A stretch of DNA of 22,828 nt from a virus, in IMG/VR virus record IMGVR_UViG_3300044568_000450, positions 1 through 22,828 of that record; one strand, 5' to 3'. Of the stretch, positions 2,395 to 21,202 are shown piece by piece. How positions within the stretch are numbered: the stretch's first letter is position 1; every line of letters begins with the position of its first letter. The notes beneath the pieces were generated by a model. It was not told the origin of the DNA. It saw nothing but the letters and a program-made list of their open reading frames with translations, and searched no databases. Made by a program: the position numbers and the translations under genes.

Positions 2395-4668
2395 TTATCC
2401 TAGTGCTTTTGGGCTCTTGCCACTTGTTTGGGAATCAAACTCAGCTTTTATCTGTGGCAATATTTCTAGAACATCTGCTGAAATACCCGGATCTGATGTA
2501 AGAGATCTTTCTTTTGCTGTAGCATATAGTGTGTCGTAGTCGCCGGAATACATAACAGCATATGGCCCGTATCCCGATAATGTTGTGTAATCTCCATTCT
2601 CTAATCTCCAGAGTACATCTACTGCAGAACTTGCTACAGCCGACACTGTTACAAATGTGCCTGCACCAGGGCCAGTTTTGCGGAGAAATTGTCTAGAAAT
2701 TGTAATTGGATATTCAACTGTTGACTCTTGACCTACTGGTGGTGGTGGTGTAGTAGTAATTGGAGGTATACCGTTCTTAGCTAGCAGTTTATTATTCATA
2801 CCTTCTGCTAGGCTAGCTTTAATTGCCTCGCCTTCTGCTGTGGCAGTACTGGCTAAGTTATGTAATACATCAGCTACACCACTGCCACTACTATCTGCGC
2901 CAAATTTGTGTAGATTTTTAGCAAAACTCATAGCAGAGCCCAACACATTGGGCGCAGGACTTGTTAAATCCACACCGGTGTTTTCTACAAGACTTACAGC
3001 GCCTGCAAGAGATGAGGTTAATGCTGAAATAGCCGCACTAGCATTAGTACCTACTGTTTGAAGGAAACTTGTGATGCTAGGTCCGCCTGCTAAGTGCTGA
3101 GTAAAATCACTCATACTAGGCAATCCCATTGGTCCTGTTCCGGTGCCAGTTAATGTATCGATAGTGCTTTGATTATCGGTCACTAAACTGTTTAATGTAG
3201 GAAACTCTGCAGAATGTAGAGGTGTTTGGATTGATTGAATTTGGCTAAACAACGAACCAGCGGCACCTGCATCTGCAACCGTGCCGGCACCCATATCAGT
3301 TAAGTGTGTAGTTAATCCACTAATACCACTAGCAAGCCCAGCAGTGCCTTCTGGATCTAATTTTGTGGGATCACCCAAATCTTTAAGACTTTGTATTCCA
3401 CCGGCACCCATTGGCAGGTTTTGCCCGGGTGATAAATCTGCTCCCATAGCAGTACTAGGAACACTAAAGCCTGTATTAAATGATGCAGTTGACGCGGCAG
3501 CAGCTGTTGTTGAAGAACTACCGTCGGGGTTAGGTCCAGCATTGGCAACCAGCATGGCTCTAATACCTGCTATTTTTCCGTTCAACTCGCGTACTGCGGC
3601 GTTAGCATCAGCCATAGCGGCCTCGACGTCATTGTTTCTAAAATTAACTAAGGCTAATTTATATTCATCATCAGGCAAAGGTCTAATTTCTTTTAATGAG
3701 ATCTCATTGGCTTCTTTAAATGCGTTATTAAAATCTACGTTAGTAAATGATATAGGCCAGTTAGCTTTTAATACGTTGTAATCGTCCCAGGTTGATACAC
3801 TGTTTGTGTCCGGAAACCATTGGTTATTAATTTCATCAACTACTGCATTTAATCTATCAATAATGTTTTGTAATTTAGCCATGATGGCATCAGTAGTACT
3901 GTCACCCGATGTATCACTTGCGGCGATCTCCGGAGCAACGTCAAATTGGTCAGCCACTACACTCATGGCGCCAGGATCAGTAATTCCGTTCATCACTTCA
4001 TCAATTTTTTCTTTGTAAATAGGATTGTCTAGATCGTCCAATGGTACACCAGCCGCGGCCAATCTTCTTTTAACACCTGTAATGCCAGCTAGTTTGTTAT
4101 CCAATAAGGATTTAACCATACCTACACTACTGCCAAAGTCCTTAACATCACCACCATTATACATTGTGCCAGTTGAGGTCATTGCGGCGCCAGCTGCTGC
4201 AAGACTGCCAAAAACGTTTGTCATGCCGCGATCTGCAGCACTGCCCATATCTGTAATGCCAGCACCGAAGTCACTGTAGCTAGTATTGGCCATAAAATCA
4301 CTGGCTTTACGTAGTTCTTTAGCGTCTTTAATATGTCCATCTATCTGATTTAAGAAACTACCAAATGCCGCATGATTGGGAGTACCACCAAATCCCATAC
4401 TGCTATGAAAACTATTCATGCTAGATAGTGCAGCCGCAGCTGCTCCTTGGTTGGGATCTAAAATATTACCAGCAATACTACTCAAAGTTGCCATAGCATT
4501 AGCCACAGGTGCCGCTAATGTAAGTGCTGTACCATTTTTAATCCCTATCATCGCAGTAAACGTAGCAGGGGTTAAGGAGGCAGCGGCCTGTCCTAAAGTG
4601 TTCTTTTGGTTTTCGGATATTACTGAGCCAGCTTGGCTAGTAACTAAGCTATAGTCTTTTTCAGACAT
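2395..4668 (-). CDS. Large Ala/Gly/Ser/Thr-rich putative virion structural protein
   Basis: A 757-residue protein I do not recognise as a named T4 product. The N-terminal 250 residues and the region 390-650 are low in complexity and rich in Ala, Gly, Ser and Thr (for example AAAAALSSMNSFHSS and LTSSLAGAVS). Between them, about 270-370, lies a helical, more charged segment (DAIMAKLQNIIDRLNAVVDEINNQW and after). After a proline stretch (TTTPPPPVG, about 642-650) a compact C-terminal domain of about 100 residues begins (YPITISRQFLRKTGPGAG). No catalytic motif, signal peptide or clear transmembrane helix. Size, composition and position in a late-gene-rich region suggest a tail or virion component. 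AGGA lies 8 bases before the ATG. Confidence 0.6.
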   Translation of the reverse strand: MSEKDYSLVTSQAGSVISENQKNTLGQAAASLTPATFTAMIGIKNGTALTLAAPVANAMATLSSIAGNILDPNQGAAAAALSSMNSFHSSMGFGGTPNHAAFGSFLNQIDGHIKDAKELRKASDFMANTSYSDFGAGITDMGSAADRGMTNVFGSLAAAGAAMTSTGTMYNGGDVKDFGSSVGMVKSLLDNKLAGITGVKRRLAAAGVPLDDLDNPIYKEKIDEVMNGITDPGAMSVVADQFDVAPEIAASDTSGDSTTDAIMAKLQNIIDRLNAVVDEINNQWFPDTNSVSTWDDYNVLKANWPISFTNVDFNNAFKEANEISLKEIRPLPDDEYKLALVNFRNNDVEAAMADANAAVRELNGKIAGIRAMLVANAGPNPDGSSSTTAAAASTASFNTGFSVPSTAMGADLSPGQNLPMGAGGIQSLKDLGDPTKLDPEGTAGLASGISGLTTHLTDMGAGTVADAGAAGSLFSQIQSIQTPLHSAEFPTLNSLVTDNQSTIDTLTGTGTGPMGLPSMSDFTQHLAGGPSITSFLQTVGTNASAAISALTSSLAGAVSLVENTGVDLTSPAPNVLGSAMSFAKNLHKFGADSSGSGVADVLHNLASTATAEGEAIKASLAEGMNNKLLAKNGIPPITTTPPPPVGQESTVEYPITISRQFLRKTGPGAGTFVTVSAVASSAVDVLWRLENGDYTTLSGYGPYAVMYSGDYDTLYATAKERSLTSDPGISADVLEILPQIKAEFDSQTSGKSPKALG

Positions 4669-4677
4669 TAATTATTC

Positions 4678-4989
4678 CTAGGTAATAATACCACCAGCTG
4701 TAGCAGGCGCAATACCTGTTGTAGTTTGGATATAGTGGTTCTCTACATTTTTAACTGTAGGTGCATGTATCATTACATGGCCTTTGTCAAGAGTTATACT
4801 CTTATTTAAGTCACTTGTGAATAGACTTTGTAGCAGGCCTAATCCCTGCTGACTTGGCATTACTGTACATGGTTTACTTACTATAAAACCATTGGCATTT
4901 TCTTCAATAATTTTAGCAACAATTTCGTCGCCGTTAACTAATTTAAAACTTACCACTGTATCTTTTGCGTAACCTTGTTTCTCAAGCAT
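4678..4989 (-). CDS. Small beta-rich phage protein, possibly Sm-like
   Basis: A 103-residue protein. The N-terminal part, VSFKLVNGDEIVAKIIEEN followed by GFIVSKPCTVM, is a run of beta strands with an NGDEI turn that resembles the strand 1-2 pattern of Sm/LSm folds (loss-of-identity level; no search possible). The C-terminal part is rich in Thr, Ala and Gly. It overlaps the upstream glutaredoxin gene by 8 bases and so belongs to the nrdA-nrdB-glutaredoxin operon. Function unknown; an RNA-binding role would be speculative. Confidence 0.6.
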   Translation of the reverse strand: MLEKQGYAKDTVVSFKLVNGDEIVAKIIEENANGFIVSKPCTVMPSQQGLGLLQSLFTSDLNKSITLDKGHVMIHAPTVKNVENHYIQTTTGIAPATAGGIIT

Positions 4990-5239
4990 TTGTTGCTCCT
5001 AAGCGTTGTTGAATTTGTTCAGCAGTTAATTTTGCTAAACCTTGATATCCACCTTCTACTAACAAACGACCATTGTTGTAGATCTGTGGGGCTGTGCGGT
5101 GACCTTCATTGATCAACCATTCACGTGCTTCTGGGTCTTCATCGATTTTAATTTCTTCGTATGCAAACCCATTAGTCTTTAAGTAGTGTTTTGCTTTATC
5201 GCAAAACGGACAATTATTTTTACTATATACTGTTAACAT
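4982..5239 (-). CDS. Glutaredoxin
   Basis: An 85-residue thiol-disulfide oxidoreductase with the dithiol active site C10-P-F-C13, the cis-proline block TAPQIY and the glutathione-contact glycines EGGYQGL near the C-terminus. Length is normal for a classical glutaredoxin. It lies directly downstream of nrdB (10-base gap), so its likely job is to re-reduce the C-terminal cysteine pair of NrdA after each turnover, using host glutathione. The dithiol CPFC centre suits this role better than Fe-S cluster carriage, which is typical of monothiol CGFS glutaredoxins. Confidence 0.93.
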   Translation of the reverse strand: MLTVYSKNNCPFCDKAKHYLKTNGFAYEEIKIDEDPEAREWLINEGHRTAPQIYNNGRLLVEGGYQGLAKLTAEQIQQRLGATNA

Positions 5240-5249
5240 TTATTCTCTC

Positions 5250-6350
5250 TTATAATTCTGGTAGTTCATCGTAGTTGATGCTGTCACCCATAACACCAAT
5301 TACGTAGTTTGTACTTTCATTTTCTTGCAGGGCTGTTTGTTTCTTACTTGTATCTGTATGTTTATTAAACCAAGGAATGGGTGTGGTCTTTGGCGCTGGG
5401 CTTTGATACTTAATACCTATTTGTTTTAAGGCATCTACGGCTGTATAATCAACAAAATCCTTTAAAATATTAGCGTTTAATCCAATAACCGGACCCATTT
5501 TGAACAGATATTCGGCCCAATCTTTTTCTTCTTTGATAACGGCCAAGTACATTTGATATACTTCGGCTTCGCATTCTGCTTTAACTTCAGCAAAACGCGG
5601 ATCCTCTTTAACCACTTGATTGATCAAGAACGCTGTCCACTCCTTGTGTAGTAACTCATCTTGTAGGATCAAGCTGATAATGTTACCATTACCAATAAAG
5701 ATTTTGTTCTCTACCATAGCCAAACTTGTAGCAAATGATACCATAAAGCGGAATGCCTCTAGGCCATAACTAGCATGTAGAGCTAGCCAAATAGCTTTGA
5801 TGTGATCACGTTCGTCGATCTTCTCACCCATCTCTTTACGACAGTTTATTTGATGTAATGCATCATAATAATTACCAATGTTACTAGCCATGCTGACAAT
5901 CTCCTGTGTATCATGGATAGTGTTGAATACGTCTTTAGGCACGTTGTAGATGTTACGGATAATATGACTATAGCTCTTACTGTGAATGTTAGTTTCGAAG
6001 AAACTCCAATTACTGATAAGTGCTTCTAATTCTGGAATACTCACAACAGGACCAAACACTTGATTAGGTGCGCGACCTTGAAGGCTATCTAATGCTGTTT
6101 GACGCAACAGGTTGCTGGTAAAGATATGTTTAACAGCATCGCTGGCATCTTTGAAGTCTTGACTGTCTTTAGTTAAACTGACTTCTTCAGGTTGCCAAAA
6201 GAAGCCACGTGCCGTTTGTTCAAAGTTGGCAACTTTGTTATATTTGACTTCTTCAAAGCGTTGGATAGTCACAGGACCCGCTGGGTCAAGGAACATCTTA
6301 CGATGTAGATAGTCTGTTTTGGTACTTAAATTGTATTGTTCTTTTGACAT
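5250..6350 (-). CDS. nrdB: Ribonucleotide reductase class Ia, small (radical-generating) subunit
   Basis: A 366-residue diiron-tyrosyl radical subunit. Ligands seen by alignment to memory of E. coli NrdB: D88 (ALDSLQGR), E119, H123, E198 (YGLEAFRF), E232 and H235 (DELLH); the radical tyrosine is Y127 (SKSYSHII). The C-terminal tail GVMGDSINYDELPEL is the NrdA-docking peptide. Oddity: the first Glu-His ligand pair is spaced ETNIH (E-x-x-x-H) where E. coli and T4 have ETIH (E-x-x-H), a one-residue insertion that is real at the DNA level in this sequence. The start codon overlaps the nrdA stop by one base, giving TAATG, so synthesis of the two subunits is coupled. Confidence 0.96.
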   Translation of the reverse strand: MSKEQYNLSTKTDYLHRKMFLDPAGPVTIQRFEEVKYNKVANFEQTARGFFWQPEEVSLTKDSQDFKDASDAVKHIFTSNLLRQTALDSLQGRAPNQVFGPVVSIPELEALISNWSFFETNIHSKSYSHIIRNIYNVPKDVFNTIHDTQEIVSMASNIGNYYDALHQINCRKEMGEKIDERDHIKAIWLALHASYGLEAFRFMVSFATSLAMVENKIFIGNGNIISLILQDELLHKEWTAFLINQVVKEDPRFAEVKAECEAEVYQMYLAVIKEEKDWAEYLFKMGPVIGLNANILKDFVDYTAVDALKQIGIKYQSPAPKTTPIPWFNKHTDTSKKQTALQENESTNYVIGVMGDSINYDELPEL

Positions 6351-8674
6351 TATAATTTACAGCTTTCGCAGTCCTCTTCTATATATTCTTCTACTTGCCC
6401 TGTTTGCGGCGGTATGTCCTCTGCTACTGCTTTACTACCTTGTTTGTTAATTAAACTATAGTAGAAGGTCTTAATTCCCCACGCATGTGCTTGCATTAAG
6501 TTTTTAGCAATTAGTGTAGTGGGCACTTTACGATCTGCCCAGTGTGCTGGATTGTAGAATGTATTAGTACTAATTGATTGATCAACATAGGCCGCAATAA
6601 CAGCCGCAGTTTTCAAATATCCATCGCAGTCCTTTTGTTCCCACATCAATTGATAACGATTTTTAAGTTTGTTATACTCCGGAACAACTTGAATAAAGCT
6701 ACCGGCTTTTGATTCTTTAACACTAATTAAACTCATCGGCATTTCAATTCCGTTAGTGCTGTTAATAACAACACTTGAGCTTTCAACAGGTGCTACTGCC
6801 ATTAAGGTAGCATTACGTACACCATATGATCTCATGTCACTGCGTAGTTGTTCCCAATCTAGTTCACGTGTTGGAGTAAAGTCAGCAAGTTTGTTAACTT
6901 CTTTAGCACGATGTTCCCAGGGGAATGTACCTTGGCCATAACGTGTATGTTCACTGTGCAGACAAGCACCACGTTCTTTAGCCAATTCAACTGTGGCTTC
7001 AGTTAGGTAGAATGCCTGATGTTCCATCCAGCTTTTAACTTCTTGCAGGGCATCTGCTTCACCGTAGCGTAGGTTCTTTTTAGCATGCCAGTAGGCTAAG
7101 TTAGTAATGCCAATACCCAAAGGTTGGATTTCATCGTTACTTAGTTTACTCTGTATGCTTAGGAAATCTTGGTAATCAAGTATATTACATAGACTACGCT
7201 GTAGGATACGACAAGCGCGGCGCATGTCCTCAGGATTACGGAACGCACCCCAGTTAATGGAGCCAAGAGTACATAGCGCAATACGCCCATCAGCATCATC
7301 AAGACGCTTAAAAGGCTTAGTAGGTAATAAGATTTCACAGCATAGGTTACTCTGATAAATTGTATGATACTCAGGGTCAAATGGACCTTGTTTCATAACG
7401 TTGTCAATAAACACCAAATAGATACGTCCTGTATCTGTACGTTCTTTTAAGATACCTGATTTAAATACTTCTTCAGCCGACATTACTTTCTTACGTAGAT
7501 CTTTACGTTTTTCGTATTTTACATAAAGTTCTTCAAAACGTTCTGTATTTTTGTAGAATGCTTCGTATAGGTCAGGTACTTCGTTAGGGTCAAAGAATGT
7601 AATCATTTCTTTGTTCTTAAATCTGCGCCAGAACATAGCATTAAGCACAACACCATAGTCCATATGACGTACACGTGTTTCATCTGTACCTTGATTGTTC
7701 TTAAGCACAATAAGGTCATCAAACTGATGATGCCAGATAGGGTAAAACACAGTAGCTGATGCGTTACGTATGCCGCCTTGCGAACAGCTACGTAAATCAC
7801 CAAACCACTTCTTAAGGAAAGGAATCATACCCGTGTGCATGATTTCACCGCCACGAATAGGACTACCCAATGGACGCAGGCGGCCAATTTCTAAACCGAT
7901 GCCAGCACGCTTGCTTGCATATTTGGCCATCATTTCTCCGCTAGCAAATATACTATCCAAGTCGTCATCACTGCGAATAAGCACGCAAGAACTGAATTGT
8001 TTCGTTGGAGTGCCGAGTCCAGCAAGCACAGGAGTGGCAAGAGTAAACAAACCATCACTAGACGCATTGTAATATTCCTTGATATATTTTAAACGCTGGC
8101 CTGGCAATTCGTTATGGAATACAGTGGCTGCCGCTACCATATAACGTATTTGTGGCGTTTCATAAATTTCTTTAGTAGCACGATTTCGTACTAGATACTT
8201 TTCAATTAGTTGTTCAATAGCCGCATAGCTATATTCTTCATCTTTAGCGTGATCAAGTATGTCATTCATCTTGTCCCACTCTTCTTCAGTGTACCATTGT
8301 AGAAGTTCTGGAGTATAGAGGCCAACTCCGATGTTCTTCTTAACAATTTCTAGTAAGTGCGGAACTTGATAATCGCCGTAGACGTCTTTACGTAACATAC
8401 TTAGGCGTTGTTTGCCTGCTACATATTGATAATTTACATGCCCAACATCTGGGTCGTGTTCGATATCAATTAAGTCTACAATGGCACGTAGGGTTAATTC
8501 GTCAATTTCTCTGGTGCTAATTCCATCGTAGAAGTGTGGTTGTGCTTTGATCTCAATCATACTCTGACTTACATCAGCTATACCTGCACAAACTTTACTT
8601 ACTTGGGCTTGCCATTTACTAACGTCTAATGGAACGATGGCTCCGCTACGTTTTTTAACTTGAATATTGCTCAC
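6350..8674 (-). CDS. nrdA: Ribonucleotide reductase class Ia, large (catalytic) subunit
   Basis: A 774-residue protein that reduces ribonucleoside diphosphates to deoxyribonucleotides. An N-terminal ATP-cone region (about 3-95, starting VKKRSGAIVPLD) suggests allosteric activity control. Catalytic residues: C230 (FSSCVLI) and C468 (ALCTLGSIN) as the redox pair, N443-x-C445-x-E447 (SNLCCEI) as the radical site, Y738-Y739 (KTFYYS) for radical transfer, and the C-terminal cysteines C769 and C772 (CESCKL) for re-reduction. No intron, split or homing insertion is present. It starts with GTG, preceded by a strong AAGAGG Shine-Dalgarno with 7-base spacing. First gene of nrdA-nrdB-glutaredoxin. Confidence 0.97.
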   Translation of the reverse strand: MSNIQVKKRSGAIVPLDVSKWQAQVSKVCAGIADVSQSMIEIKAQPHFYDGISTREIDELTLRAIVDLIDIEHDPDVGHVNYQYVAGKQRLSMLRKDVYGDYQVPHLLEIVKKNIGVGLYTPELLQWYTEEEWDKMNDILDHAKDEEYSYAAIEQLIEKYLVRNRATKEIYETPQIRYMVAAATVFHNELPGQRLKYIKEYYNASSDGLFTLATPVLAGLGTPTKQFSSCVLIRSDDDLDSIFASGEMMAKYASKRAGIGLEIGRLRPLGSPIRGGEIMHTGMIPFLKKWFGDLRSCSQGGIRNASATVFYPIWHHQFDDLIVLKNNQGTDETRVRHMDYGVVLNAMFWRRFKNKEMITFFDPNEVPDLYEAFYKNTERFEELYVKYEKRKDLRKKVMSAEEVFKSGILKERTDTGRIYLVFIDNVMKQGPFDPEYHTIYQSNLCCEILLPTKPFKRLDDADGRIALCTLGSINWGAFRNPEDMRRACRILQRSLCNILDYQDFLSIQSKLSNDEIQPLGIGITNLAYWHAKKNLRYGEADALQEVKSWMEHQAFYLTEATVELAKERGACLHSEHTRYGQGTFPWEHRAKEVNKLADFTPTRELDWEQLRSDMRSYGVRNATLMAVAPVESSSVVINSTNGIEMPMSLISVKESKAGSFIQVVPEYNKLKNRYQLMWEQKDCDGYLKTAAVIAAYVDQSISTNTFYNPAHWADRKVPTTLIAKNLMQAHAWGIKTFYYSLINKQGSKAVAEDIPPQTGQVEEYIEEDCESCKL

Positions 8675-9780: not shown

Positions 9781-9787
9781 TATTTAT
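9781..9787 (-). promoter_or_regulatory. T4-type late promoter box for the fibre gene
   Basis: ATAAATA on the minus strand, ending 24 bases before the ATG of the fibre-type gene. It matches seven of the eight bases of the T4 late consensus TATAAATA. It overlaps the end of the nuclease gene, so it would start a separate late transcript. Confidence 0.6.
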
Positions 9788-10482
9788 GCTAGTCGGTAAT
9801 ACTGCTCAACTCTTGCTAACCAACGTTCAGTCCATAAATCCCAATCGCTACCTTCAACAGTCCATGTCTGATATTGCACCTGCTCGTTAGGTTTAGGTGC
9901 CACTGCCATTAGAATAACACCCTGGCGAATGTCTGTTCCGTGTGTTTCGTTATGTGCTAGTCCATATGCCGCTAACTGGAGAAAATAGTCTTCAATCCAC
10001 TCCAATTTCTTAGGTTTATTGGTCTGTTTGTAGTCTAAAATGGCAGGTTTTTGCTTGTAAATACCACATGCATCAGTAGTACCAGCATACAGCCCACTAA
10101 CATATAAAGGAACCTCAATTCCCCAAATTTCATCAGCATGTACTAGACCGTTTTCAATAACAGCTTGGGCCATACGATGTGCTTGTTGACTGTAAGGATT
10201 AGATCCAGGGTCGTTAAGTACACGGTTATTCTGCACATAGTCCTCTAAGAACTTGTGCATACGTGTACCTCGACCGGCAGCTTCTGTGGTAATTTCAGTA
10301 GCACGTTGTTCACCAACTGACTTGCGCCAATTAGCCAGTGCTTCACGCTTTTCCTGTGGCTTAGTACGGTCTAGAATAGTAGTAACGCTTGGAACCTTAC
10401 TACCGTCGGGTAAACAGTAGTGACGTTTGCCATCTACTGTTTCTCTGTTTATGGGTGTGTAATCGTATTTTTTTATCAGCAT
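9784..10482 (-). CDS. RecB/Cas4-like PD-(D/E)XK nuclease
   Basis: A 232-residue putative DNA exonuclease. In order it shows RGTRMHKFLE (G-x-x-x-H block, H76), the strand WGIEVPL, AGTTDA (D137), AILDYKQT (D150-Y-K152, the catalytic D-x-K) and YFLQLAAY (the Q-x-x-x-Y helix), which is the full motif order of RecB-family nucleases. Metal-dependent DNA end processing in phage replication or recombination is the likely role. I chose the ATG at 10482 rather than the TTG at 10500, since MLIKKYDYTPINR makes a natural family-type N-terminus; the Shine-Dalgarno is weak for either. It follows erpA closely. Confidence 0.82.
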   Translation of the reverse strand: MLIKKYDYTPINRETVDGKRHYCLPDGSKVPSVTTILDRTKPQEKREALANWRKSVGEQRATEITTEAAGRGTRMHKFLEDYVQNNRVLNDPGSNPYSQQAHRMAQAVIENGLVHADEIWGIEVPLYVSGLYAGTTDACGIYKQKPAILDYKQTNKPKKLEWIEDYFLQLAAYGLAHNETHGTDIRQGVILMAVAPKPNEQVQYQTWTVEGSDWDLWTERWLARVEQYYRLA

Positions 10483-10513
10483 CTTACTAGTATATAGCAA
10501 GATCTTCTAAAGG

Positions 10514-10840
10514 TCAAACACTAAATGATGATCCGCACCCACAGCTTGTTTGAGCATTAGGATTTTTAATACTGAAGTTACTACCTGCTAGAGATTCAAC
10601 ATAGTCAATCTCAGCGCCTTGTAGATATTGACTACTCATACTGTCTACTAGCACTGCTATATCTTCAACTACAATTTCAAAGTCATCGTCATTTTTTTGT
10701 TCATCTATAGTAAACCCGTAGCTGAATCCACTACAGCCCCCACCTTGGACAAATACACGCAAGCGACTAGTGCTAGGTTCGTCACTCATAATTTCTTTGA
10801 TCTTTTTAACTGCGTTTGGTTGTAAATTAATTAGTTCCAT
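10514..10840 (-). CDS. erpA: A-type iron-sulfur carrier, ErpA-like
   Basis: A 108-residue A-type Fe-S carrier, very close to E. coli Erp[14 protein letters not shown] with C36 and [16 protein letters not shown] with C100 and C102 at the C-terminus. These three cysteines bind the cluster in the family. In bacteria ErpA receives clusters from the IscU scaffold (often through IscA) and passes [4Fe-4S] clusters to target enzymes. AGGA lies about 9 bases before the ATG. A sigma70-type promoter lies in the 59-base gap after iscA, so it can be transcribed apart from iscU-iscA. Cytoplasmic. Residue similarity rules out a generic HesB relative. Confidence 0.94.
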
Positions 10841-10852
10841 TTTGTTTTTTCC

Positions 10853-10866
10853 TATAGTATGCTATA
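10853..10866. repeat. Inverted repeat near the erpA transcription start
   Basis: TATAGTATGCTATA: arms TATAG and CTATA around TATG. It lies just downstream of the erpA -10 box, between the expected start of transcription and the Shine-Dalgarno, where an operator would sit. It shares AGCATACTA with the primase promoter region (22231-22239, same strand sense). No known regulator can be assigned. Confidence 0.35.
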
Positions 10867-10874
10867 ATTATTTT

Positions 10875-10903
10875 AGTATACATGTTTTACCTAGCAACGT
10901 CAA
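10875..10903 (-). promoter_or_regulatory. Sigma70-type promoter for erpA
   Basis: On the minus strand, -35 TTGACG (10898-10903) and -10 TATACT (10875-10880) are separated by exactly 17 bases; each matches five of six consensus bases. Transcription would start near 10868, leaving a leader of about 28 bases with an AGGA site. The -35 box overlaps the end of iscA. Confidence 0.6.
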
Positions 10904-11220
10904 ACATTAAATGATTCGCCGCAACCACAACTATCTTTAACATTTGGATTAATAAATTCAAATCCTTCGTTTAATCCCTTTTTAGTGTAGTCTATCTCTG
11001 TACCATCTATATAAACAAGACTTTTTGGATCTACTACAACTTTTGCACCATTGGACTCAAATATCAGATCATGTTCATCAGTTTGATCAACAAATTCCAT
11101 CACATAAGCAAATCCTGTGCATCCACTGGTTTTTACTCCTATGCGTATACCTATACCTTGGCCACGATTGGCTAAGTATGCTGTTACTTTATTTGCTGCT
11201 TGTTCAGTTAATGTTATCAT
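10900..11220 (-). CDS. iscA: A-type iron-sulfur carrier, IscA
   Basis: A 106-residue Fe-S/iron carrier, very close to E. coli IscA over its full length: [16 protein letters not shown] with C34, [15 protein letters not shown], and [10 protein letters not shown] with C98 and C100. It should accept clusters from IscU and hand them on, with ErpA, to apo-enzymes. The start overlaps the 3' end of iscU by 17 bases, so the two are translationally coupled, as expected of an isc-type gene order. All three ligand cysteines are intact, so the protein should be functional. Confidence 0.95.
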
Positions 11221-11590
11221 GTTTATTTCTATAGTCTGCTATTGCTGATTTAATTGCGTCTTCTGCTAACACTGAGCAATGTATCTTTACTGGAGGTAGG
11301 GCAAGTTCTTCGGCAATTGCCGAGTTCTTAATTTCTTGAGCTTGATCGAGCGTGCGACCTTTGAGCATTTCTGTTACTAAACTACTTGAGGCAATGGCGC
11401 TACCACAACCGTAGGTTTTAAATTTAGCATCTGTTATAATTCCGCCATGAACTTCAATTTGTAATTTCATAACATCTCCACAGGCAGGAGCACCCACCAT
11501 ACCAGTACCTACATCTGGACTATTTTTGTCCAATGTGCCTACGTTGCGTGGGTTTTCGTAGTGGTCTAGTACTTTGTCTGAATATGCCAT
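11204..11590 (-). CDS. iscU: Iron-sulfur cluster scaffold protein IscU
   Basis: A 128-residue scaffold on which [2Fe-2S] and [4Fe-4S] clusters are built from sulfur supplied by a cysteine desulfurase. It is very similar to E. coli IscU throughout: C37 and D39 ([10 protein letters not shown]), C62 ([12 protein letters not shown]), LPPVK at 98-102 followed by H104 and C105. LPPVK is the HscA chaperone recognition motif, so the phage protein probably works with host HscA/HscB and IscS, which are not encoded here. The start MAYSDKV is at 11590: GGAG lies 6 bases upstream and MAYS is the family N-terminus; an ATG four codons earlier contains that Shine-Dalgarno and is rejected. Confidence 0.96.
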
Positions 11591-11614
11591 ATCAATCTCC
11601 AATAGTTGACTATA

Positions 11615-11643
11615 ATACTACACTATTTATTATTAGTTGTCAA
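11615..11643 (-). promoter_or_regulatory. Sigma70-type promoter for iscU, with a late box inside the spacer
   Basis: On the minus strand a perfect -35 TTGACA (11638-11643) is followed after 17 bases by TAGTAT (11615-11620). The spacer contains ATAAATA (11624-11630), a T4-type late box. Arms GTTGAC (11605-11610) and GTCAAC (11639-11644) form an inverted repeat around the promoter. This would let iscU-iscA be made both early and late. The -10 match is moderate (four of six). Confidence 0.55.
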
Positions 11644-12474
11644 CCACTCGGGAGAATGTCTTGCCTGATTTAGATCATCTTCTTTTATTTCTTTAATTTC
11701 AAATATAGGTTTAGACATTTCTCTATATTCACCCAATGCTGTATGCCATTTAAGATTTTCTGGACAAAATTCACATTGTGGGATATGCTGATCTTTAGTT
11801 GCTACAAATTGCTGTAACTCTTCCTCGGAGCAATCTGCTGTTAATGGTTTAAAACTGTATAATAATTTACGTTGTCTATCATCCATCCGCAAATCAAATT
11901 GCTGATCAAAATCAGGAAGACCGCTCATAGCAGGACATTTATACAATTTTCCGTTATACATTGTGTGATCGTGTTTCATATCACATACATCAAACGCTCG
12001 TTTAGGATTGCTTTGATGCAACACCCAATGGTCGTCTTCCTTTATTACTGTATTTTGATGAAAAATATATGCTTCAAATGGTCCAGCAAGATTTTTCCAT
12101 TTTTCTTTTAGTTCGTCTGCAGTCGCAGGATCGTGAAGACTGAGCCCAATTCCTACAGAATATTTTCGCCAATATTCCAATGGATCAAATTTTTGATAAG
12201 TTCCATTTGTTTGTATCATAATAACGGCATTGGGCCATAATCTACGTAAGTTAGCGCACCATTTTTCTAAGTCTGGGTTAAGTGTAGGTTCACCACCTAT
12301 AATAGTAATACGTGGTAGCTCTAATCTTTTTGACCATGCTTCGTATTCATCTGCATAGTCGTCCCAGTATTGATGTCCTTTAAAGTTTAAGTCGTTGAAA
12401 CGGTTGCAACCTCTGCAGGAGAGATTACAAACATTTGTGATATAAAATTCTACTACAGGGAAAAGTTTGATCAT
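11623..12474 (-). CDS. Radical SAM protein with SPASM/twitch-type C-terminus (next to iscU)
   Basis: A 283-residue radical SAM enzyme. C16-x3-C20-x2-C23 (CNLSCRGC) binds the SAM-coordinating [4Fe-4S] cluster, and GGEPTLNP (60-67) is the SAM-binding glycine motif; IQTNGT at 87-92 follows as in the barrel fold. The C-terminal part has C164, C180, C234 and C237 (VCDMKH, YKCPAM, CEFC), a pattern expected for an auxiliary [4Fe-4S] cluster of SPASM/twitch proteins. Such enzymes usually modify peptides or proteins, but no substrate is evident. It lies directly upstream of iscU on the same strand, a logical neighbour since it needs two clusters. The start follows a perfect inverted repeat and no Shine-Dalgarno is seen. 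Confidence 0.9.
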   Translation of the reverse strand: MIKLFPVVEFYITNVCNLSCRGCNRFNDLNFKGHQYWDDYADEYEAWSKRLELPRITIIGGEPTLNPDLEKWCANLRRLWPNAVIMIQTNGTYQKFDPLEYWRKYSVGIGLSLHDPATADELKEKWKNLAGPFEAYIFHQNTVIKEDDHWVLHQSNPKRAFDVCDMKHDHTMYNGKLYKCPAMSGLPDFDQQFDLRMDDRQRKLLYSFKPLTADCSEEELQQFVATKDQHIPQCEFCPENLKWHTALGEYREMSKPIFEIKEIKEDDLNQARHSPEWLTTNNK

Positions 12475-17877: not shown

Positions 17878-18849
17878 ATGAATAAATCTTTCTGTGTAAT
17901 GCCATTTTATGGTGCCGAATATACTCCAGCTGGATTAACCCCATGTTGTTTACTTCCAAAAAATACTAACATAGTACAATTACGGGAAGATATCCTCAAT
18001 GATACGAGACCCATTGCATGTCAAAAATGTTGGGCATTAGAAGACCAAGGAATAATTAGTGATCGGCAAATAAAAAACTCTGCATTTGATTTTTATAGCA
18101 ACAAAGACATACAATTCATTGAAGAAGACTGCCGCAATGGTAAATTTAGTCCTCAAATTGTTAAATTTTATACCTCAAATTTATGCAATGGCACTTGTGT
18201 TACTTGCGGAGCCGGAGCAAGTACCGCATGGGCAACTCTTAATAAAGAAAAAACTTTTGAAATAATTGATCAACATCTATTAGATTCAATAGCATTAATT
18301 GATGTAATAATAATAACCTTTGTTGGTGGTGAACCGTTGCACGAAAAAAAGAATTTTGAATTGTTAAAAAAATTAATAGAAATCGGTAATACTACTTGTT
18401 TTATATCAATGACTACAAACGGATCAGTTGAGTTATCTACAAAACAACTTGATATATTAAAACAATTTAAAAATATAAACTTATGTTTAAGTATTGACGG
18501 CGTTGATACAGTGTTTGAATATTTAAGATATCCGCTCAAATGGTCGACCTTAATAGATAATATAGAATTATATCGATCGATGAATATTGACTTATCAGTT
18601 AGTTACACTATCAGTAATTTAAATACATTATATTATGATGAAACTATAGCATGGTTTAACAAAATGAAATTACCTTATAATCATAATATAGTAAGTTCCC
18701 CTGTTTATTTTTCTCCCACAGTACTGCCAGATGGAGTTGACAATCATTTATTGGATGTTTGTCGAGCTGAAATTCTAAAACAAGATAATCTTAAGAATAT
18801 TAATATCCAAGATTATCTGCCAGAATTCTATAAATTGATATTTAAATAA
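17878..18849 (+). CDS. Radical SAM protein with N-terminal SPASM/twitch-type cysteines
   Basis: A 323-residue radical SAM enzyme in an unusual order. The cysteines of a probable auxiliary cluster come first (C6 in FCVMPF, C23-C24 in TPCCLLPK, C48 and C51 in CQKC), then the core motif C103-x3-C107-x2-C110 (CNGTCVTC), GGEPL (150-154), TTNGS and LSIDGV. The core therefore follows the auxiliary module. CVMPF followed by G-x-x-P-CC is typical of SPASM-like segments. Substrate unknown; a peptide or protein is likely for the family. It is the only plus-strand gene between 1519 and the window end, flanked by divergent and convergent neighbours, and is clearly more AT-rich than they are, which fits a recently acquired accessory gene. 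Confidence 0.88.
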   Translation: MNKSFCVMPFYGAEYTPAGLTPCCLLPKNTNIVQLREDILNDTRPIACQKCWALEDQGIISDRQIKNSAFDFYSNKDIQFIEEDCRNGKFSPQIVKFYTSNLCNGTCVTCGAGASTAWATLNKEKTFEIIDQHLLDSIALIDVIIITFVGGEPLHEKKNFELLKKLIEIGNTTCFISMTTNGSVELSTKQLDILKQFKNINLCLSIDGVDTVFEYLRYPLKWSTLIDNIELYRSMNIDLSVSYTISNLNTLYYDETIAWFNKMKLPYNHNIVSSPVYFSPTVLPDGVDNHLLDVCRAEILKQDNLKNINIQDYLPEFYKLIFK

Positions 18850-18857
18850 AATATAAA

Positions 18858-20246
18858 TCATTTTGTGTTCTTCAAGCCGGCAAGCATATTTTTGAGTTTA
18901 CTGCTATCTACACTAGCATTAATTTTAGGACTATCTACAGCGTCTTTATTTACTGTACTACCAGCTTTGATCTGTCCTAAGATATTATTTGCTGTTGATT
19001 TAAATTCCCCGTCATCGCTTACGCCACTGTCGGTAATACGCATTGTGTCAATATCGTAATCCAAATCAATCTTTTGACCTACCCCAGTTGAACTACGTGA
19101 CTTCATACATTGAATTTGATAGCGACCGCGCTCTTTCATAGCACGACTTGTAAAGATACCAAACACGTTATCTGCTGTGTTGATCTTACTTAGACCACCT
19201 GCAATATGGCTATGGTCAAATTCAATTTCTTCTACTGCTCCACGGTTTAACTGTGACGCTGTTACAAATAATACATTAAGTTCTTTGGCTAGATTACGCA
19301 ATTCTTCTGATACATACTTGTCTTTAACAAACAAATCATTTGGGCTAACTTTGGCACTCACTGGCATAACCAAGTCCAAATAGTCTACCATGACAAAGTC
19401 TACTTTCTTACCTGTTTGAATTTGATATTCTTTTAGGTATGCTCTAATATCGTTAACGTTTGACTGTGCCGGAAAACCTTTGATCTGATAGTTACCTGCT
19501 TTCTTACTTACTAAGCGTACCTTCATTGTAGTTGTGTCGATGTCTTTGCGGATATCTTTTGTGCCCATACCTGTAAGCATAGCATCTGTACGTAGAGCAC
19601 AAAGCTCCTCACTCAACTCTAAACTTACATATACACCACTAAGTCCAGCTTGTAACCAACTAAGTGCAATGTTCATCATAACCAGTGATTTACCAGAACC
19701 TGAGCCACCAGCAAAGATATTAAGTTCGCCGCGACTAAATCCACCATATAATAGTTTATCAAGTTGTTGCCAACCTGTACTTACCTGTCCGCCACTGTTA
19801 TAATACTTTTCGATACGTGCTTTGGGATCACTAAAATAATCAGTACCCATGTCTTTAGTAAGACTAATTTGTACAGCATCTTTGATTAATTTTTCTACAG
19901 GATTATAGTCACCCTTCTCAAGCATGTCTGCGGCTTTGAGAATAGCACGTTCAAGTTCTTGACGTTTAGTAAAACCCTCAAACTCGCCCATAAACCATTC
20001 ATAGTGGCTTTCTGTTAAATCTGGTACATGTTTAAGTGTTGTGCCCGTAACTGCTTGAACCTGCTCAATAGTAGGCATAGCACGATGTTTATCTGTATGC
20101 TCTTTGATGAAACGTGCCACATCACGTAGGCTACGGTCAAAGTTTTCTGGATTGTAAATGTTCTGCACACGCACATAACTTTGTGCATCCTGCAACATCA
20201 TTTCAATAAAAAGTTTTTGTAAATCTGGTGAATAGTCTTTGCTCAT
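18858..20246 (-). CDS. gp41: Replicative DNA helicase, DnaB family (T4 gp41-like)
   Basis: A 462-residue ring helicase that unwinds the fork ahead of the leading-strand polymerase and stimulates primase. Seen: an N-terminal helical domain (1-150), Walker A FAGGSGSGKSLV (K186), SLELSEE (catalytic Glu around 210), Walker B FVMVDYLD (284-291) and the TASQLNRG motif near 327. The ATG at 20246 is chosen over the TTG at 20258 because it forms an ATGA overlap with the upstream radical SAM stop and has GGA 6 bases upstream. It is separated from its usual partner, the primase, by the radical SAM gene at 20243-21202. Confidence 0.94.
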   Translation of the reverse strand: MSKDYSPDLQKLFIEMMLQDAQSYVRVQNIYNPENFDRSLRDVARFIKEHTDKHRAMPTIEQVQAVTGTTLKHVPDLTESHYEWFMGEFEGFTKRQELERAILKAADMLEKGDYNPVEKLIKDAVQISLTKDMGTDYFSDPKARIEKYYNSGGQVSTGWQQLDKLLYGGFSRGELNIFAGGSGSGKSLVMMNIALSWLQAGLSGVYVSLELSEELCALRTDAMLTGMGTKDIRKDIDTTTMKVRLVSKKAGNYQIKGFPAQSNVNDIRAYLKEYQIQTGKKVDFVMVDYLDLVMPVSAKVSPNDLFVKDKYVSEELRNLAKELNVLFVTASQLNRGAVEEIEFDHSHIAGGLSKINTADNVFGIFTSRAMKERGRYQIQCMKSRSSTGVGQKIDLDYDIDTMRITDSGVSDDGEFKSTANNILGQIKAGSTVNKDAVDSPKINASVDSSKLKNMLAGLKNTK

Positions 20247-21202
20247 ATTTTTCCGCAATTAAAAGTACAAAAATCTGGCTTGTTAATTTCTATATTATTA
20301 TAATATTGATCTAGTGTAGATTTAGTAGCTAGCATCTGAGATATTGTAGTTTTACTTATATCGTATGTTTCTCTATTCTTATAAAATTCATTTTTATAAT
20401 AAAATCTATAATCTCCGGCCCAGCAACATGGCATGTAAATACCGTCAGCTGAGATGAAGTGCATATTATTAGTACTCTTACATACTGGATTAATTTTATC
20501 TGGTATTTTATGCTGTTTCCACAAAATAATAGTAGAATCTCTACCCCCTACATGACTGCTATTATATAACAATCCGTCTTTGGCATTTTCTATTTTAGCA
20601 TACTTTATGGGCTTAAGCCAATCATTATCTTCCCATCGGTCACTATTATTTAGAACAAAATCATCCATTCCTAACTTTTGACTAATAATTCTAGCTTCAT
20701 CAACGGTATCTTCATTGTAGCTGAATACAATATATTTCCAGACAACCTGTGCCCGACTACTAACCATAACTTCTATGCCTGTTTGGATACTAGTCCAGTC
20801 GGCATTGATTCGATATGTAGTAAAATTGCCAGGAGTTCCGTCGATTGAAAAATTAACAATGTCATTTTGGTCTAATAGTTTAGCCAGTTCTTGCCACCAT
20901 ACTTTTGATTTATAACTACCATTTGTATGTATGGATATTTTACACTTTTTATTTTTAAAGTACGCAATAAGCTCAAACAAATTTGGATAATATATAGGAT
21001 CTCCATAGTTGCCATTTAATCCTATCGACATTCCAGTTAGGTCAATATCTAAAAACTGTTTTAGATGATCTAGGTTAAGATTTTGATTGTCCCAATTTTT
21101 AGGCTTAAACTGTTCAACAAAATTTGTACGTGGACATCTCGGACATTTAAGAGTACACATATTTGTGGGTTCGATATGAAACCCTTTTATTTTATTAAGC
21201 AT
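20243..21202 (-). CDS. Radical SAM protein with C-terminal SPASM-like cysteines, between primase and helicase
   Basis: A 319-residue radical SAM enzyme with C16-x3-C20-x2-C23 (CTLKCPRC). The usual GGEP is replaced by NGNYGDP (63-69), still a glycine-containing loop after strand 2; IHTNGS and FSIDGT follow as in the barrel. The C-terminal part carries C241 (PVCKST), C259-C260 (MPCCWAGDY), C312 and C316 (CTFNC), a SPASM-like auxiliary cluster set. It overlaps the primase stop by 8 bases and the helicase start by 4 (ATGA), so it is translated as part of the replication operon. It is more AT-rich than both neighbours, suggesting an insertion. Substrate unknown. Confidence 0.88.
   Translation of the reverse strand: MLNKIKGFHIEPTNMCTLKCPRCPRTNFVEQFKPKNWDNQNLNLDHLKQFLDIDLTGMSIGLNGNYGDPIYYPNLFELIAYFKNKKCKISIHTNGSYKSKVWWQELAKLLDQNDIVNFSIDGTPGNFTTYRINADWTSIQTGIEVMVSSRAQVVWKYIVFSYNEDTVDEARIISQKLGMDDFVLNNSDRWEDNDWLKPIKYAKIENAKDGLLYNSSHVGGRDSTIILWKQHKIPDKINPVCKSTNNMHFISADGIYMPCCWAGDYRFYYKNEFYKNRETYDISKTTISQMLATKSTLDQYYNNIEINKPDFCTFNCGKI

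Follow-up and report, generated by a model that had tools for sequence, protein, structure and literature searches.

The question raised by this locus is how phages related to it could make an intact iron-sulfur (Fe-S) cluster scaffold protein, IscU, from a gene that a stop codon breaks within an elaborate RNA signal. The stretch analysed here (the window) is a virus record of 22,828 bp, IMG/VR IMGVR_UViG_3300044568_000450, on whose minus strand the genes rSAM1 > iscU > iscA > erpA follow one another in that order. The iscU of the window is itself uninterrupted: its product aligns with a solved IscU (2l4x) over residues 5-129, keeping Cys41, Asp43, Cys66, Cys109 and the LPPVK motif. We take these four residues to be Cys37, Asp39, Cys63 and Cys106 of E. 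coli IscU, and that numbering is used for the relatives. The features on which the argument turns are as follows.

11204..11602, minus strand: iscU, scaffold, uninterrupted allele, with a TTG start at 11602 or an ATG start at 11590 (TIGR01999, 218.5 bits, cut-off 192.4)
11477..11524, minus strand: stretch of 48 nucleotides (nt) whose last codon is the Gly that follows the first ligand Cys; site of cassette 1 in relatives, uninterrupted here
11288..11293, minus strand: Pro and Val codons of LPP/VK, located from the sequence; site of cassette 2 in some relatives, uninterrupted here

Interrupted iscU alleles in related phages

A stop codon directly follows Cys37-Gly38 (GAPACG-stop) in at least 80 unique viral iscU sequences, for example those of loci L144, L158, L161, L291, L359 and L401. 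Two pattern scans for GAPACG plus stop, together with earlier loci, gave at least 125 matches, of which at least 80 are unique; six contigs (L187-L192) were fetched twice each and count as 12 loci within the 125. Both scans required the stop behind Gly38, and the figures are counts of interrupted alleles and not an estimate of their share among all iscU genes. Uninterrupted controls were likewise gathered by a pattern with GAPACG fixed. The iscU of the window is the uninterrupted allele of the same locus: it has no insert, its immediate upstream neighbour is rSAM1 instead of an HNH-like gene, and genes of the surrounding window block lie within 6 kb of 64 of the 80 interrupted iscU genes.

We assign a probability of roughly three in four to the reading that phage iscU carries mobile "stop-hop" cassettes comparable to that of T4 gene 60. 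Cassette 1 would consist of a motif, a hairpin ending on the Gly38 codon, a stop and a gap, which ribosomes would bypass to join Cys37-Gly38 to Asp39; it would travel with an upstream HNH-like gene, so far seen only before iscU, and protect iscU from it. An unrelated cassette at LPP/VK appears to go with another nuclease-like gene, located downstream. Together these would form a large natural family of bypassing genes in phages.

No part of the arrangement behind the stop was in the search pattern. The stop is TGA in 39, TAG in 27 and TAA in 13 of 79 sequences, and in the eightieth (L481) a TAG overlaps the landing codon. The next Gly codon lies 0 nt from the stop in 3 sequences, 1 nt in 37, 2 nt in 20, 3 nt in 16 and 4 nt in 3, and Asp39-Val comes directly after it in 79 of the 80. 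Inserts, counted with the landing codon, are 6-10 nt long and leave a remainder of 1 in 40 sequences, 2 in 20 and 0 in 19; because they fall in all three frames, no single frameshift can restore the protein. Hopping from one GGN to the next would yield PACG-DV in all 79, and in some relatives coding resumes after the break as DVMKLQ, in another frame. What bypassing should leave in the DNA is accordingly present: a stop behind the take-off codon, which the search had set, and a GGN landing codon with Asp-Val behind it, irrespective of frame.

Interrupted alleles were sought in other collections as well. A looser pattern, in which TGG was also allowed, gave 35 matches in 29 of 398 Pseudomonadota genomes, and none of the ten matches that were read is iscU. 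Among deposited phages, a tblastn search with IscU found 17 records, all with iscU in one piece starting at residue 1-7, and a DNA search found four records, each with its iscU match in one piece. Among the results listed by full-text searches of open-access PubMed Central (PMC), one of which listed 20 of 228, no publication dealt with an interrupted or bypassed iscU; DUF1289, a family met again below, appears in 4 papers of that library. A different kind of interruption occurs in L391 (oriented locus, open reading frame (ORF) 3540-4835), where an insert that we take to be intein-like, going by its end motifs, lies at the second ligand (KTYGC and, after a break, 10 further residues) within one open frame of iscU.

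RNA signals and nuclease-like genes

In 59 of 62 interrupted sequences a Shine-Dalgarno-like GGAG or GAGG motif stops 44, 45 or 47 nt short of the last base of the Gly codon; the same stretch holds the motif in 3 of the 73 viral genes without an interruption (at that spacing in two of them) and in 2 of 41 bacterial genes. The sequence behind the motif has a stronger fold than its synonymous recodings, with a mean z of -2.58 for interrupted genes (n = 51), as against -0.85 for uninterrupted viral genes (n = 70) and -0.14 for bacterial iscU (n = 40). In an alignment of 43 distinct interrupted sequences, 97.1% of the cells of the hairpin pair (91.4% in shuffles), and the covariation score of 0.236 (0.131 shuffled) was reached by none of 500 shuffles; one pair is CG in 22 sequences, AU in 17, UA in 3 and GC in 1, with no mismatches. 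Two of the five covariation measures are not extreme, namely pairs changed on both sides (4 versus 3.1, equalled in 93 of 500 shuffles) and further pair types (13 versus 11.1, 43 of 500). In the control of 66 sequences without an interruption, pairing in this structure is 67.1%, with a score of 0.063 versus 0.070 shuffled. By comparative sequence analysis, the covarying stem-loop before the take-off codon that bypassing calls for is thus a property of the interrupted genes and not of the uninterrupted ones. The hairpin would extend into the take-off codon and, once refolded behind the ribosome, could bring the motif beside the gap. Two uninterrupted iscU genes retain hairpin sequence, L206 all of it and L162 the 5' arm, and may be products of loss or recombination.

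Of the 72 unique interrupted loci that have 900 nt of upstream sequence, 53 show an HNH-like match (partial in some) no more than 1.2 kb upstream, compared with 0 of 82 uninterrupted loci. In 46 loci the match forms an open frame 150 codons or longer, whose end lies 53-101 nt ahead of the GAPACG codons. When relatives were scanned for the HNH-like gene only, 75 of the best 80 of 129 had at least 150 nt behind the gene, and iscU was there in all 75; these iscU genes, many of them near-copies, comprise 49 with the cassette, 2 with the gap and no stop, and 24 uninterrupted. A 14-residue protein context kept in 72 of 75 other uninterrupted viral genes occurs in 0 of these 24, which read GL with APSCG, GSPACG, DLM, DLL or DVL, though the comparison set was itself chosen with GAPACG, and the site varies among interrupted genes as well. 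Carriers of the HNH-like gene appear, then, to have either the cassette or an altered site, as would be expected if both protect.

The assignment of these proteins as HNH-like comes from motifs together with weak scores. The 15 that were aligned share invariant DH..P, an Asn and zinc-type Cys pairs; PF01844 matched 8 of the 15 weakly (best E 0.009, under the cut-off), phrog_5104, a family of unknown function, matched all 15, and a fold search with a predicted model gave no useful match. On a tree of the downstream part of IscU alone, 15 changes are needed to account for the interrupted label, of which supported branches force at least 5; shuffled labels need 49.7 on average. The tree is built on 92 columns and is poorly resolved, and proteins of fewer than 80 or more than 105 residues, or without VKIHCS, were left out of it. 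One interrupted and one uninterrupted gene share an identical downstream protein.

At the second site, a stop and three nt stand between LPP and VKIHC in 15 unique iscU sequences (L158, L323, L349, L421 and L493-L503), the three-nt gap having been fixed in the scan. All 14 rows that reach far enough upstream (12 of them distinct) contain AGGAGG or GAGGAG, and in the same 14 a long hairpin is predicted whose end falls on or close to the last Pro codon; judged by eye, L498 and L500 show paired differences in it. The codon behind the stop is CUN, or in L500 CCG, matching the take-off codon. A second frame, presumably of nuclease kind, starts 55-127 nt downstream in 7 of 13 contexts and has one sub-threshold DUF559 match in Pfam. 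Both cassettes occur together in 4 contexts and the second by itself in 7, and L372 has the second nuclease gene without the second cassette.

Proposed bypassing, its precedents and the alternatives

As described in a review (PMC5009743) and a 2024 paper on kinetics (PMC11194080), bypassing in T4 gene 60 involves a Gly take-off codon followed by a stop, a Gly landing codon, a 5' stem-loop that re-forms in the wake of the ribosome and modest help from a Shine-Dalgarno-like motif. Interrupted iscU resembles it in its short first ORF, in these codons and their stop, in the preceding stem-loop and Shine-Dalgarno-like motif, and in having a gene nearby for a homing endonuclease (in iscU a putative one) from which protection has been proposed. 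The gap is 50 nt in gene 60, whereas 3-7 nt precede the landing codon in iscU; the T4 case is one gene, whereas there are 80 unique iscU sequences, whose codons are not always matched; and the key nascent-peptide signal of gene 60 is KKYK, the likeness of iscU resting on the other features. The relevant passages of PMC5009743 also describe synthetic "stop-hops", with a hop over a stop or short insert between like codons, and bypass elements of Magnusiomyces mitochondria, where a short insert is hopped and imperfectly matched codons occur. Those are synthetic constructs or a mitochondrial bypassing independent of mRNA context, while interrupted iscU occurs naturally in phages and has an RNA signal that is conserved.

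Several observations speak against bypassing by such cassettes. Take-off and landing codons are identical in 31 of 79 sequences and share the same Y/R half of the Gly box in 46 of 79, and codons so often unmatched imply either that re-pairing need not be as strict as in T4 or that a further step takes part. No upstream HNH-like match was seen in 19 of the 72 interrupted loci. In the nine codons behind the junction, the ratio of nonsynonymous to synonymous polymorphism (pN/pS) is 0.119 in interrupted and 0.035 in uninterrupted genes. Lastly, L579 and L580 have the cassette 1 gap with TGT in place of the stop behind the Gly codon.

If the interrupted alleles made two polypeptides instead, with the second newly started behind the stop to give a split IscU, a start codon would be expected there. 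A Met codon does follow Asp-Val in 64 of 79 sequences, and the Shine-Dalgarno-like motif before the break could be read in the same way. In the other 15 that codon is Leu, however; 20 of 79 have no ATG, GTG or TTG from the last in-frame stop up to the landing codon; and Asp39-Val is kept almost throughout though it would go untranslated if that Met were the start. Re-initiation behind the stop is therefore disfavoured, and a split IscU seems improbable. We find it no easier to believe that the interrupted alleles are dead genes, spread by an endonuclease cutting uninterrupted iscU, for which the upstream HNH-like matches, the scatter of the interrupted label over the IscU tree and two loci with a gap but no stop could be cited. 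A dead gene would need neither a covarying hairpin nor what lies behind the break: 66 different proteins of normal length with VKIHCS, and pN/pS of 0.12 to 0.18, the value further downstream being 0.177 in interrupted and 0.168 in uninterrupted genes. Chance or assembly error is ruled out, the same interrupted sequence occurring in six contigs from six samples (L187-L192) and the 80 unique versions having all three stops and several gap lengths, as are a reassigned stop or readthrough as a common explanation and one fixed +1 or -1 frameshift, since 60 of 79 inserts change frame and all three stops occur.

Ribosome hopping is very rare in biology. T4 gene 60 and yeast mitochondria are the established cases of natural efficient bypassing, and according to PMC5009743 shorter-distance counterparts have long been presumed. 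Should the bypassing of iscU be real, dozens of natural variants in gap, stop, codon and covarying hairpin would allow the rules of ribosome hopping to be tested directly, and homing endonucleases would be shown to drive the evolution of recoding. The alleles found around the window's trio thus matter more than the trio itself, which fits well into a known class of phage cargo.

The uninterrupted set of the window and its likely role

The other features of the window are these.

11623..12474, minus strand: rSAM1, a radical SAM protein of twitch type; iscU follows it directly (PF04055, 41.6 bits)
10900..11220, minus strand: iscA, A-type carrier (TIGR02011, 177 bits, cut-off 150.6)
10514..10840, minus strand: erpA, A-type carrier (NF010147, 148.9 bits, cut-off 117)
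9784..10500, minus strand: PD-(D/E)XK exonuclease gene, which closes the cluster in relatives too (phrog_298, 186.6 bits; synteny)
4982..8674, minus strand: glutaredoxin, nrdB and nrdA, an iron-dependent reductase block downstream (family matches; synteny)
17878..18849, plus strand: rSAM2, twitch-domain radical SAM protein, possible client (NF033640, 202.1 bits, cut-off 170)
20243..21202, minus strand: rSAM3, radical SAM protein, possible client (PF04055, 32.4 bits)

An earlier note, made from the DNA letters, had placed a scaffold and both A-type carriers with their cluster ligands, and with the LPPVK motif in IscU, directly downstream of a radical SAM gene. All four genes lie where it put them on the minus strand, and family scores and alignments to 2l4x and 1s98 bear out the rest; the 1s98 alignment covers the length of IscA, its CGCGESF end included, and ErpA ends in CGCGSSF. 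Against the stricter model NF007049, IscA scores 164.8 bits, under the cut-off of 181. The iscU and iscA genes overlap by 17 nt. The note had further said that rSAM1 needs at least two clusters, which is plausible: the predicted model (mean predicted local distance difference test score 73) is nearest to SpeY, a twitch radical SAM dehydrogenase (7wzx, E 1.2e-9, TM-score 0.59), and by this likeness rSAM1 may bind two clusters.

The doubt that the contig might be bacterial or chimeric is answered by its being a virus record; it has genes for virion proteins, an exonuclease, a DnaB-like helicase, primase, NrdA, NrdB and glutaredoxin, and the set recurs in related phages. In most of 80 viral loci fetched with IscU (tblastn, window proteins), iscU lies in a conserved block of the order g13568, g12877, g12488, optional rSAM1, iscU, carrier(s), exonuclease, g9154, g8691, nrdA, nrdB, grx; about ten (such as L058-L060 and L066-L071) belong to other phages with iscU and erpA. 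IscU, IscA and ErpA types occur together in 8 of 72 viral clusters with enough flank (those with less than 900 nt of sequence upstream or 1200 nt downstream were excluded), and iscU and erpA only in 9 of 72; these loci came from IscU, DUF1289, ErpA and rSAM1 queries, and the shares are not population frequencies. Among 44 rSAM1 loci, iscU starts less than 150 nt behind rSAM1 in 30 and less than 800 nt behind it in 8 more, with 2 not judged. Viral iscU is under purifying selection (pN/pS 0.17 over 58 codons). All 32 records with iscU chosen from the 80 fetched loci have an A-type carrier and 22 of the 32 a radical SAM domain; the record of L058 (50,478 bp, iscU and erpA) holds nine radical SAM matches in one viral fragment.

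To call such a trio unusual, as the note did, was too strong. A 2017 study of T4-like environmental viral genomes (Nishimura et al., PMC5332604) reports genes for IscU (6 genomes), A-type carriers (14 genomes), radical SAM proteins, glutaredoxin and PaaD, and proposes that they serve viral Fe-S proteins. The likeness lies in iscU and carriers standing alongside radical SAM and glutaredoxin genes; a gene order with DUF1289, endonucleases or interruptions does not figure in its section 14. HMO-2011-type phages, another phage group, were reported in 2022 to have iscU and erpA as cargo (PMC9038755), with neither a trio nor linkage to radical SAM genes in the passages concerned. The trio of the window is a member of this known class of phage cargo.

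What the set does is best read, on balance, as an add-on for maturing Fe-S proteins that plugs into host machinery and chiefly supplies the radical SAM enzymes of the phage itself, of which the window encodes three. Assuming that the set is expressed, and going by what is known of these families, phage IscU would obtain sulfur from host IscS, the record showing no sulfur donor, and would be unloaded by host HscA/HscB, HscA being the likely partner because LPPVK is kept; IscA and ErpA would then pass clusters to clients. The note's dependence on host machinery holds up in this reading, while its "self-contained" module does not: IscS, HscA, HscB and ferredoxin, which would make up a complete ISC system, are absent from the ORFs of this 22.8-kb record, a fragment of a phage that may have them. 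That absence counts against a maturation add-on, as do the 10 of 32 iscU records, mostly fragments, in which no radical SAM domain was seen and the 4 of 44 rSAM1 loci without iscU nearby.

It is possible, though clearly less likely, that the set sustains host Fe-S enzymes during infection instead of feeding phage enzymes. The proteins are of ordinary bacterial type and would serve any client, and besides the clusters with only iscU and erpA, erpA stands alone in many viral loci; the linkage of iscU to rSAM1, however, and the many radical SAM genes of such phages, both in the records here and in the relevant part of PMC5332604, point the other way. That the proteins are decoys occupying host IscS or HscA to weaken the host would fit the carriage of scaffold and carriers without a donor, but is very improbable, as full ligand sets are conserved and both carriers kept, and a decoy needs neither.

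The bacterial loci nearest to the window's IscU (n = 49) are mostly of Methylophilaceae, their titles judged by eye; no host is claimed, because the search favours close matches and the IscU tree rests on so few columns. The carrier genes are swapped between close phages: L004 and L006 are 97-100% alike to the window over most genes, yet only 65% alike in erpA and 93% in iscA (10514-11220), and in L004 rSAM2 is replaced too.

Many relatives have a protein of 50-61 residues encoded between iscU and the carrier, which Pfam places in DUF1289 in 8 of 8 tested (for example L018:10371-10547) and which has four invariant cysteines in 9 sequences; it is present in 22 of the 32 records. The window is without this gene and has erpA behind iscA instead. 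In a scan for DUF1289 only, iscU ends at most 60 nt upstream in 70 of the best 80 of 231 relatives, 60 of these 70 also have a carrier starting at most 60 nt downstream, and 7 of the best 80 are without iscU. In one study (PMC8228696), E. coli overexpressing ydhL (DUF1289) was one of 20 strains growing at 6 mM H2O2 and one of 27 candidates against H2O2 as well as HOCl. We infer that the DUF1289 protein works with the scaffold, and so recurrent a partner offers a clue to what this conserved bacterial protein, so far without a known function, does. Genes may also be inserted between DUF1289 and iscA, encoding a radical SAM protein with a sub-threshold B12-binding match in one locus (L304:3504-5189) and a flavin-type oxidoreductase in another (L186:1838-3151).

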